Below, piece after piece: positions 1 through 42,501 of a DNA stretch of 64,000 nt. A model generated the notes under the pieces. It did no database searches. It worked only from the letters and a program-made list of their open reading frames with translations, and was not told the origin of the DNA. Each line of letters begins with the position of its first letter. The stretch's first letter is position 1. Source of the DNA: Pedobacter kyungheensis (GTDB lineage Bacteria; Bacteroidota; Bacteroidia; Sphingobacteriales; Sphingobacteriaceae). The stretch spans positions 62,001 through 126,000 of the forward strand of contig NZ_JSYN01000004.1 of assembly GCF_000812965.1 (NCBI RefSeq), written 5' to 3'. Both the position numbers and the translations under genes were made by a program.

Positions 1-2389
1 TCAGTTTCAGCATCAGTTTACCAAAACGAATGAATGGTCCCCAACGGCCGTTTTCGATCGAAATTTTCTCGGCATCCCAGGTTTTAATGTACCTGTTGGC
101 CTCTTTTTCTACTTTTTTGCCAATTAAGGTTTCAATATCGGCCTGTGTAAGGTTATTGAAATCGTAACCTTTAGCCGGGATATTGATAAACAAGTCGTTC
201 CATTTAATAAACGGACCAAAACGGCCTTTTCCTTTGGTAACGCCCAAGCCCTGGTAATAGGCAATAGGCGCATCGTCGTCCATTTTCTGGCGGATAATTT
301 CAACAGCTCTTTCGTAGGTTACCGACAGTGGTTCTTCGTTTTTAGGCAATGAAATAAAACTCTCACCCCATTTTACATATGGACCAAATCTGCCTACACC
401 AATTACTACTTCCTTACCCTCAAAATCGGGTAGCTGGAAAGGTAGTTTAAATAATTCTAATGCATCGTCAAGCGTAATGGTAGCAACCGATTGGTTACGC
501 ATTAAGCTGGCATAGCGGGGCTTTTCTTCTTCATCTAGCTCGCCAATTTGCACCAGCGGACCAAATTTACCCACTTTGGTGTAAACGTTTTTACCCGTTG
601 CGGGATCAAGTCCTAACAGGCGTTCGCCGGTAGCACGTTCTGCAGTTTCTAAAGTAGTTTCTACTTCGGTGTGGAAAGGATTGTAGAAAGAATGGAGCAT
701 TTTTGTCCACTCTTGTAAGCCCTGCGCAATCTCATCAAATTCTTTTTCTACTTTGGCAGTAAAGTTAAAATCGACGATTCCTTTAAAATGTTCAACCAGG
801 AAATCGTTAACTACCTCACCAATATCGGTAGGGAAGAGTTTCGATTTTTCGGCTCCGGTTATTTCTGATTTGGTTTCTTTTTTAACCTTGCCGTCGGCCA
901 AAGTAATGGCTGTAAACTTACGCTGTTTACCTTCACGGTCTTCTTTTACTACGTAACCACGGTTTTGTACGGTAGAAATGGTTGGTGCATAAGTAGACGG
1001 ACGGCCAATGCCCAGTTCTTCTAATTTTTTAACCAAACTGGCCTCTGTATAGCGTGCCGGCGGACGAGAATAACGCTCAGTTGCCTGCATTTCTTTTAAA
1101 AATAATTCCTGCCCCTTAGCTAAAGGAGGTAAGATTGAGCCACCTTCTTTTTCATCGCCTTCTTCATCGTCGGTTGATTCGAGATAAACTTTTAAGAAAC
1201 CATCAAATTTCAGCACCTCACCTTCAGCCACTAAATGCTCTTTGCGGGTTGATGCGGTAATTTGTGCAGTAGTTTTCTCGAATAAGGCTTCGCTCATTTG
1301 CGAGGCAATTGAACGTTTCCAGATCAGATCGTACAAACGTTTTTCTGAAATATCGCCATCAACCGTATGTCTGTCGAAATAGGTAGGGCGGATGGCTTCG
1401 TGGGCCTCTTGTGCACCTGCCGATTTGGTTTTATAAACCCTTGGCTGGTGATATTTTTCGCCGTAGGCCGATTTGATTTCGGCAGCTGCAGCATTTATAG
1501 CGGTTTCTGATAAGTTTACCGAGTCAGTTCTCATGTAGGTAATCTTACCCGCCTCATATAATCGTTGGGCAACCTGCATGGTTCTGGCAACCGAAAAACC
1601 TAATTTTCTGGAGGCTTCCTGTTGCAGGGTTGAAGTGGTAAAAGGTGCTGCCGGATTACGTTTTGCCGGTTTGGTTTCTAAGCTGCTAATGGTAAATGCA
1701 GCACTGGCACAATCCTGAAGGTATTTCTCTGCATCGGCTTCGCTTTCGAAACGCTGTGGTAATTCGGCTTTTACCAGTTCGCGGCCTTTGCCGGTAGTAA
1801 ACTGGGCTGTTATTTTATATGCTGCTGAAGCATTAAAGTTTAAAACTTCTCTTTCTCTATCTACAATTAAACGTACGGCAACAGATTGCACACGGCCTGC
1901 AGATAAAGATGGTTTTACCTTTTTCCATAATACCGGCGAAAGCTCAAAACCTACCAGCCGATCTAAAACGCGGCGGGCTTGTTGTGCATTTACCAGGTTA
2001 TAATCGATACCCCGTGGACTATCGATGGCTTTTAAAATGGCAGGTTTGGTAATTTCATGAAAAACGATCCGCTTGGTTTTTTCTACTTTAAGGCCTAATG
2101 TTTCGAATAAGTGCCACGAAATGGCTTCTCCCTCGCGGTCCTCATCGGATGCTAACCATACCATTTCGGCATCTTTAGCAAGCTTTTTCAGTTCGGCAAC
2201 CACATTTTTCTTATCGGCGGGCACCTCGTAGGTTTGGGCAAAATTGTTTTTGATATCAATTGCCATGTCGCCCTTCACTAAATCACGTATATGGCCATAG
2301 CTAGACTTCACCAGGAAATCTTTGCCTAAATAGCCTTCAATAGTTTTAGCTTTTGCGGGTGACTCGACGATTAGTAAGTTTTTTGCCAT
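1..2389 (-). CDS. topA: DNA topoisomerase I (3' end lies outside the window)
   Basis: Type IA topoisomerase that relaxes negative supercoils by a transient 5'-phosphotyrosine link. The frame is open from the ATG at 2389 to the window edge, giving 796 codons without the C-terminus. The TOPRIM domain is visible at residues 1-115 (VESPAKAKT near residue 9; acidic DEDREGE near 82-88), and the catalytic tyrosine is Y285 in the motif YMRTDS. The C-terminal part has no obvious Cys4 zinc fingers; instead it carries repeated units of the form VG(R/K)FGP(Y/F)-x-KW, at least four of them, the C-terminal repeat type usual in Bacteroidota TopA. A separate promoter is likely, because the upstream 480 bp hold no gene. 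Identification is firm. Confidence 0.97.
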   Translation of the reverse strand, partial: MAKNLLIVESPAKAKTIEGYLGKDFLVKSSYGHIRDLVKGDMAIDIKNNFAQTYEVPADKKNVVAELKKLAKDAEMVWLASDEDREGEAISWHLFETLGLKVEKTKRIVFHEITKPAILKAIDSPRGIDYNLVNAQQARRVLDRLVGFELSPVLWKKVKPSLSAGRVQSVAVRLIVDREREVLNFNASAAYKITAQFTTGKGRELVKAELPQRFESEADAEKYLQDCASAAFTISSLETKPAKRNPAAPFTTSTLQQEASRKLGFSVARTMQVAQRLYEAGKITYMRTDSVNLSETAINAAAAEIKSAYGEKYHQPRVYKTKSAGAQEAHEAIRPTYFDRHTVDGDISEKRLYDLIWKRSIASQMSEALFEKTTAQITASTRKEHLVAEGEVLKFDGFLKVYLESTDDEEGDEKEGGSILPPLAKGQELFLKEMQATERYSRPPARYTEASLVKKLEELGIGRPSTYAPTISTVQNRGYVVKEDREGKQRKFTAITLADGKVKKETKSEITGAEKSKLFPTDIGEVVNDFLVEHFKGIVDFNFTAKVEKEFDEIAQGLQEWTKMLHSFYNPFHTEVETTLETAERATGERLLGLDPATGKNVYTKVGKFGPLVQIGELDEEEKPRYASLMRNQSVATITLDDALELFKLPFQLPDFEGKEVVIGVGRFGPYVKWGESFISLPKNEEPLSVTYERAVEIIRQKMDDDAPIAYYQGLGVTKGKGRFGPFIKWNDLFINIPAKGYDFNNLTQADIETLIGKKVEKEANRYIKTWDAEKISIENGRWGPFIRFGKLMLKL

Positions 2390-41689: not shown

Positions 41690-41726
41690 GGTCAAAGGAA
41701 CTTAAAAAGGCCGGGTCAACAAAGAA

Positions 41727-41743
41727 ATGTCGACAAACGACAT
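41727..41743. promoter_or_regulatory. Palindrome between the kinase and the divergent secreted-protein gene
   Basis: ATGTCG and CGACAT are perfect 6-bp arms around ACAAA. CGACAAG-like words also occur on the minus strand near 41775 and in the repeat at 39517, so this may be a binding site of the adjacent LytTR regulator or another factor. Confidence 0.4.
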
Positions 41744-41792
41744 AAATAATAGAGGAAGATACGCATAAAAATACGCTTGTCGATTAGATTGG

Positions 41793-41823
41793 TTGTTACT
41801 CTACTATTTTTTAGCTGTATTTG
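41793..41823 (+). promoter_or_regulatory. Promoter of the small secreted protein gene
   Basis: TTG (41793-41795), a 20-bp spacer and TGTATTTG (41816-41823, one mismatch to TAnnTTTG) lie 41 bp before the ATG at 41865. Confidence 0.55.
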
Positions 41824-41864
41824 CTGAAGCGCTAACTTGGTACTAAATCAAAAAAATAAACAAT

Positions 41865-42293
41865 ATGAAAAAGTTATTAGTTTGTGCTTTCCTGGTTGTA
41901 ACACTGGGAAGTTTAAGTTTTACCACCAGGTTTGGACTTGATGGTTATGAGATTTTTCTCAATAACAAATCGGTGCTGAAACAGTACATTAACCAACCAC
42001 TAAATTTAAGGGTATTGAATTTAGATCAGGCTAAAGAAACGGATCAGTTGCGCATTGTTTACAAGCACTGCCGCCTGGATAACGGTACAGGCACTGGTCG
42101 TGGCCTCGCACTTAAAGACCAAAGCGGTACTACTTTGCACCAGTGGAGCTTTAGCAATGAAGGCCAGATGACCATTTTGGTGAAAGAATTGCGCCAGGCC
42201 GAAAAGAAAAGTGGAAAAAACAAACTCAGTCTGTATTATACTGCGCGTGAACTCGAAAAAGGAGAGATGCTGGCCATGATTAGCCTGAAATAA
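41865..42293 (+). CDS. Small secreted protein of unknown function
   Basis: 142 residues with a signal peptide (MKKLLVCAFLVVTLGSLSF) and a mature beta-rich domain (DGYEIFLNNKSVLKQYINQPLNLRVLNLDQA...YKHCRLDNGTGTGRGLALKDQSGTTLHQW...KLSLYYTARELEKGEMLAMISL). I do not know a named domain for it. Similar proteins occur beside LytTR kinases in related genomes, as far as I recall, and it is divergent from such a pair here, so it is likely a target or partner of that system. Confidence 0.75.
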   Translation: MKKLLVCAFLVVTLGSLSFTTRFGLDGYEIFLNNKSVLKQYINQPLNLRVLNLDQAKETDQLRIVYKHCRLDNGTGTGRGLALKDQSGTTLHQWSFSNEGQMTILVKELRQAEKKSGKNKLSLYYTARELEKGEMLAMISLK

Positions 42294-42401
42294 AAAATAT
42301 CGGGTAACAGCTTATGTATAAGTATGCACATTGCCTCTACAAACAGCTGTATAAAGTTGTGTTTGTTTATACATTATGAGTCACAATGTAACTACAAGCG
42401 T

Positions 42402-42430
42402 TTGAAATAAGCAATGAGCCACTATCTTTG
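42402..42430 (+). promoter_or_regulatory. Promoter of the candidate small RNA
   Basis: TTG (42402-42404), an 18-bp spacer and TATCTTTG (42423-42430), an exact TAnnTTTG match. No start codon follows in a coding context; a terminator comes 40 nt after the expected start. Confidence 0.7.
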
Positions 42431-42435
42431 AAACA

Positions 42436-42501
42436 CAATCGCCTCACTCGATTGAAACAAATTCTGTCTGCTCCAGTGAATTTTCACTGGAGCGGTTTTT
42501 T
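42436..42501 (+). ncRNA. Candidate free-standing small RNA (about 66 nt)
   Basis: From the expected start near 42436 the transcript would form hairpin 1 (CAATCG 42436-42441, loop CCTCACT, CGATTG 42449-42454), a single-stranded A/U-rich linker (AAACAAATTCTGTCT), then a perfect 11-bp terminator stem (42470-42480 with 42483-42493) and a run of six T (42496-42501). It has its own consensus promoter and no open frame of note. It lies between a rightward secreted-protein gene and a leftward protease-like gene. The terminator could also serve the upstream gene. No known RNA family is recognised. Confidence 0.65.

Follow-up and report, generated by a model that had tools for sequence, protein, structure and literature searches.

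Does the interval between two convergent genes of Pedobacter kyungheensis encode a free-standing small RNA (sRNA), or does it hold no more than the 3′ end of a neighbouring transcript? A sequence-only reading of the window (the whole 64,000-nt stretch of DNA analyzed, whose numbering is used throughout) had proposed a compact RNA with its own promoter and terminator at 42402–42501. Regulatory RNAs of Sphingobacteriaceae are little described in the open-licence papers searched, among which, judged by listings and abstracts, we found no studies of base-pairing sRNAs in Pedobacter or Sphingobacteriaceae. In Bacteroides, short intergenic RNAs that have a start site and a terminator form a known class, 9 of 11 tested having been validated by Northern blot, according to the accessible part of the study (PMC7366714), and the corresponding part of a Flavobacterium study describes independent short transcripts mapped by RNA-seq (PMC9723704).

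Predicted promoter, hairpins, and terminator

The promoter elements lie where the sequence-only reading placed them: a −33 TTG element (42402–42404, plus strand) is separated by an 18-nt spacer (42405–42422) from a −7 box, TATCTTTG (42423–42430, plus strand). TTGAAAT is equally spaced from the box in all four Pedobacter species that share the locus, and all eight columns of the box are invariant among them. Since the −7 box occupies positions −12 to −5 relative to the start in Flavobacterium psychrophilum (PMC9723704, accessible part), we place the start of transcription at about 42435, which gives a predicted, apparently non-coding sRNA of ~67 nt (42435–42501, plus strand). The earlier estimate of ~66 nt from 42436 is thereby corrected slightly in both start and size.

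The predicted RNA opens with a hairpin, CAAUCG-CCUCACU-CGAUUG (42436–42454, plus strand), whose perfect 6-bp stem and single-stranded continuation were correctly described before; all 19 of its columns are invariant, and its exposed 7-nt loop, CCUCACU, is a candidate seed. The linker that follows, AAACAAAUU(C/U)UGU (42455–42467, plus strand), is A/U-rich, 13 nt long, invariant at 12 of 13 columns, and unpaired in the computed fold, making it a candidate second seed. At the 3′ end stands an intrinsic terminator (42468–42501, plus strand), as expected of a free-standing Bacteroidota sRNA. Its hairpin (42468–42495) closes a 4-nt ATTT loop and precedes a run of six T (42496–42501); the stem, formerly read as a perfect 11-bp helix, in fact has 12 pairs, the second of which, counted from the base, is U-G. 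No ATG was seen by eye in the transcript, as had been claimed, and it holds no conserved open reading frame, there being neither an ATG nor any frame that closes inside it.

Within a single genome, several of these features are unexceptional. The window contains 6 instances of TTG-17..20-TAnnTTTG, fewer than the mean of 8.7 among 30 dinucleotide shuffles, and a promoter match alone therefore means little; with the exact box TATCTTTG the pattern occurs once, against 0.33 in shuffles. The 67-nt fold has a z-score of −6.1 relative to shuffles, most of which we attribute to the terminator. When only the first 33 nt are folded, z is −2.25 and 7 of 200 shuffles do equally well; the 5′ hairpin by itself folds at −4.5 kcal/mol. 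Promoter and 5′ hairpin were consequently set aside as stand-alone evidence, both being near chance within one genome. The combination is rarer: a simple scan found five strong terminators in the 64 kb, and only that at 42468–42501 has a TAnnTTTG box 15–110 nt upstream. The box, at chance level as a sequence match and invariant in four species, may belong to a dedicated promoter with the start predicted above.

Conservation and distribution within Pedobacter

The case for a functional element rests on comparison among the window's species, P. soli, P. ghigonis, and one further Pedobacter species (three distinct rows in the analysis of base pairs). From the −7 box to the T-run (42423–42501), 76 of 79 columns are invariant; in the same alignment the 5′ spacer keeps 70 of its 107 columns unchanged and the segment past the T-run 4 of 19. 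The hypergeometric probability of such invariance within the spacer is ~4e-10, and for hairpin and linker alone, where 1 of 37 columns varies, it is ~2e-6. In a second alignment of 2.4 kb that includes coding sequence, the element ranks at the top of 2,381 windows of 79 nt, with the only ties overlapping it; variable columns there make up 43 of 129 (33%) in the 5′ spacer and 10 of 19 (53%) beyond the T-run. The longest invariant run, 43 nt (42421–42463), spans the box, the hairpin, and most of the linker, and promoter or terminator function alone is therefore insufficient to account for it.

Only three substitutions fall in the element: C/T in the linker, T/G in the terminator loop, and a C/T in the terminator stem, through which one distinct row has a G-C pair and the other two have G-U, likewise a standard pair. 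All 54 pair cells of the three distinct rows are standard pairs. Because the stems hardly vary, and the 5′ stem never does, covariation speaks neither for nor against the fold. Synteny is retained in all three relatives. The short RNA gene proposed from sequence is thus well supported on comparison, by these 76 invariant columns together with box, terminator, and synteny, whereas its promoter match as such stays at chance level.

The element is confined to few genomes. A DNA search found it in 4 of 145 Pedobacter genomes, our own included, and a search of the latter found a single copy, which makes the gene easy to delete. A covariance model matches 24 of 144 genus genomes when E is limited to 0.1, but scores separate sharply: 113–114 bits in the four carriers and 27 to 36.7 bits in the other matching genomes. 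The ten best of the weaker alignments were inspected and rejected, as they share essentially the terminator, and two of the ten were the opposite strand of another listed match. Under the same E limit of 0.1, extending the search to the family gave matches in 35 of 399 genomes, with a near-full match only in the same four; eight of these loci were viewed in context, and the remainder were judged by their short coverage only. The best family match beyond the four (L114) lies inside a 421-aa open frame, and the longest partial matches (G041 and G190) also fall within open frames; none of the three was retained.

In a comparison of rpoB (2.4 kb, 137 of 144 genomes ranked), the carriers are the four most similar genomes, at 100, 99, 98, and 97%; in the next closest, at 95% and 94%, neither the genus nor the family search found the element. 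An RNA gene that is nearly invariant among these carriers, and that the searches did not find in their closest sisters, offers a clean case for studying sRNA origin. An exact scan of GTDB for the 19-nt hairpin, which may omit records near the window, returned three records, from P. ghigonis, P. soli, and one Acetothermia MAG, the last taken as chance; viral contigs gave no exact hairpin match. Conservation of the hairpins in relatives, whose absence the sequence-only reading had named as evidence against itself, accordingly holds within the P. soli clade and fails in the other genomes of genus and family searched.

Nor did the searches place the RNA in a recognized family, in line with the earlier statement that none fits: no Rfam gathering cut-off is reached by the locus or by two other loci scanned (L003 and L004). 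At E up to 10, the stretch gives 17 sub-threshold matches, the best being Spot 42 (RF00021), which was rejected because its scores, 30.2 bits at the locus and 28.9 bits in the relative L005, fall far below the gathering cut-off of 80. Since an unrelated terminator stretch (L027) reaches 30–32.5 bits with several other unrelated families (and 18.4 bits with Spot 42), we take this score as background. FopS (RF04319) and Pedo-repair (RF01715) are absent from both the gathering matches and the 17 weak ones, and GibS (RF04182) is absent from the 17.

Flanking genes, upstream sequences, and target searches

Upstream of the RNA, on the same strand, lies a gene for a 142-aa protein (41865–42293, plus strand) with a signal-peptide-like start, judged by eye, and no Pfam or NCBIfam match. 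It occurs in 14 of 144 genus genomes, our own included, with a patchy distribution by rpoB ranking. A kinase gene adjoins it in eight of nine other Pedobacter loci (L014 gave no match; fragments in G118 were left out), and the 142-aa protein may work together with this PF06580-like kinase. The genes that follow it differ among those nine loci, and the 25 loci neighbouring the gene elsewhere gave no credible match to the covariance model with filters off (best 13.7 bits). The noncoding stretch between the divergent LytTR-system kinase gene and the 142-aa gene (41696–41864) is itself strongly conserved, which suggests shared regulatory sites. With 23 of 169 columns variable there, against 3 of 79 in the element (Fisher P 0.024), high noncoding conservation is not unique to the element.

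Between the 142-aa gene and the predicted promoter stands an operator-like palindrome, TGTATAA-N12-TTATACA (42348–42373), covering roughly positions −87 to −62 relative to the predicted start. When spacers of 10–16 nt are allowed, the pattern is found at the locus in all four genomes and in one further copy, in G070 only; its reversed control is found in none of the four. This distribution suggests a dedicated operator, but within a longer transcript the sequence could alternatively fold into an A/U hairpin. Further upstream, AACAGCTTA-TGTATAAG (42306–42322, plus strand) partially repeats, in direct orientation, the sequence at 42342–42354 (AACAGCTGTATAA); its core is visible in the four-species alignment, and it possibly belongs to the same regulatory array as the palindrome.

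On the other side, a convergent retropepsin-like gene (PF13650; 42521–43450, minus strand) ends with its stop codon 19 nt from the T-run, and its mRNA could run into the antisense strand of the RNA. Retropepsins are expected to carry their active-site Asp in DTG motifs. In the protein encoded here His replaces the active-site Asp, the motifs reading HTA and HSG. Among the 30 best loci (L051–L080), His stands at both sites in all 19 homologues of at least 45% identity, our own included, and Asp at both sites in all 11 of at most 30% identity. The double-His protein would represent a conserved pseudo-protease or one with an altered active site.

Target searches covered long exact or near-exact complements of loop and linker, in lists of limited length of which a part was inspected, and gave no convincing target; pairing over shorter or gapped stretches would be compatible with this outcome. 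Complements of an 11-nt loop sequence with at most one mismatch number 48 in the four genomes (11–13 per genome), four of them the locus itself, and are rarer than the reversed control (12 vs 21 in G000); none of the 30 loci inspected among these 48 sites had a sense frame starting between −40 and +60 nt. The short loop complement AGTGAGG, placed 3–16 nt before an ATG, is found 66 times against 37 for its reversed control in G000, 52 against 23 in G031, and at least 68 against 41 in G087. Among the matches listed, it is about 1.7–2.3 times commoner than the control in the three genomes searched. Of the 66 sites in our own genome, 41 were inspected, and the two that looked start-like were neither of them a convincing gene. 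Because the other 39 were not start-like, we take the excess to reflect, probably, composition.

Near-complements of the linker (32 sites, four being the locus itself) are likewise rarer than their reversed control (8 vs 32 in G000). Outside the locus, 26 of 28 sites were inspected, and at none of them did a convincing sense start lie nearby; the closest plausible start, in G087, is at a distance of 122 nt. One linker-like site with the same context in three genomes was rejected as lying on the strand opposite to its genes. A linker-like site one mismatch off corresponds to codons for GQNLFT near the C-terminus of apparent SusC-type receptors, identified by eye; it is present in G000 and G070, and in G087 it falls in a different gene. 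Since this is a recurring protein motif, we do not count it as a target.

Competing readings and known systems

Taken together, these data suggest that the regulatory RNA encoded here is probably real and ordinary in type. We favour, with confidence a little above even, a free-standing, clade-specific, independently transcribed gene for a base-pairing sRNA of ~67 nt with targets in trans. RNA polymerase would start near 42435 and stop in the T-run, and a regulator bound to the upstream palindrome may control transcription. The 5′ hairpin would protect the 5′ end, and the loop, the linker, or both would base-pair in trans with one or more mRNAs, altering their translation or stability. Action in trans, of which the sequence-only reading had taken the compact layout as a hallmark, is inferred only.

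The gene for the 142-aa protein offers an unlikely alternative, in which the terminator serves that mRNA and the short RNA is a product of its 3′ UTR, with or without an internal promoter. Gene and RNA share a strand, with 141 nt separating the stop codon of the one from the predicted start of the other. We found no strong terminator between the gene and 42468, so transcripts of the gene, which ends at 42293, may read through; in two of nine orthologues in other species (L011 and L014), by contrast, a hairpin with a T-run is seen by eye after the stop codon. Yet a plain terminator needs neither an invariant −7 box nor an invariant hairpin, and both are kept here behind a spacer that varies at 43 of 129 columns. 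Rather improbable, in our estimation, is action in cis on the convergent retropepsin-like mRNA, whose read-through would be antisense to the RNA and form a duplex cut by RNase III-like enzymes. The 19 nt from stop codon to T-run and the retention of the gene pair in all four species fit such a mechanism, as does the failure to find a strong minus-strand terminator between 42521 and 42294; the one relative scanned (L004) has only a weak 5-pair minus-strand site (1479–1491). Those same 19 nt vary at 10 or 15 positions, depending on the alignment, beside an invariant RNA, and because any sequence yields a perfect antisense, action in cis fails to explain the invariance.

The letter-for-letter retention of the 5′ stem, even where a structural hairpin would be free to make compensatory changes, is in keeping with an RNA that binds protein, acting as a decoy that titrates an RNA-binding regulator through the hairpin. 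Bacteroides supplies a precedent in its global RNA-binding protein RbpB (PMC11697453, accessible part), and we count nothing specific against the idea, to which we nevertheless give a low probability. A very small peptide is scarcely credible. It would begin at a TTG in the 3′ arm of the hairpin and run for 17 codons in the window, and two of the three substitutions are, by eye, silent in that frame. There is no ATG, and the TTG lies inside the stem. The frame measures 17, 20, 24, and 24 codons in the four species, with C-termini that differ, and closes 1, 9, 20, and 20 nt past the last T; a transcript ending in the T-run would contain no stop for this frame, since that stop begins after the T-run in all four. 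Also a long shot is a scheme joining the whole locus: a dedicated regulator of TGTATAA-N12-TTATACA would control a clade-private sRNA, which would link the 142-aa protein, encoded next to LytTR two-component genes, with the double-His retropepsin-like protein, both by sense-antisense pairing of shared 3′ ends and through a hairpin-loop seed acting in trans.

The preferred reading, an independently transcribed base-pairing sRNA, has counterparts elsewhere in Bacteroidota, which we compare here on the accessible parts of the cited studies. Another candidate structured RNA, Pedo-repair (RF01715; PMC2864571), also comes from Pedobacter. The independent short transcripts of Flavobacterium psychrophilum, Rfp18 among them, are likewise free-standing, and the predicted targets of Rfp18 pair with a stem-loop, though the median length of these transcripts is 176 bp, against ~67 nt predicted here (PMC9723704). 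GibS (RF04182; PMC7366714) is also intergenic, with its own promoter, genus-level conservation, and a seed in its 5′ part, but that promoter is non-canonical and the RNA largely unstructured. The RNA predicted here appears similar in size to Bacteroides FopS (RF04319; PMC11697453), with no relationship detected between the two. FopS measures ~65–70 nt by Northern blot and, like the RNA proposed here, consists of a 5′ region followed by an intrinsic terminator; its canonical sigma-A promoter would have its parallel in the conserved sigma-A-type box at our locus. In FopS, however, the 5′ seed is single-stranded, and B. thetaiotaomicron encodes 14 paralogues; the Pedobacter RNA would present its 5′ region as a hairpin, and the search of its genome gave one copy.
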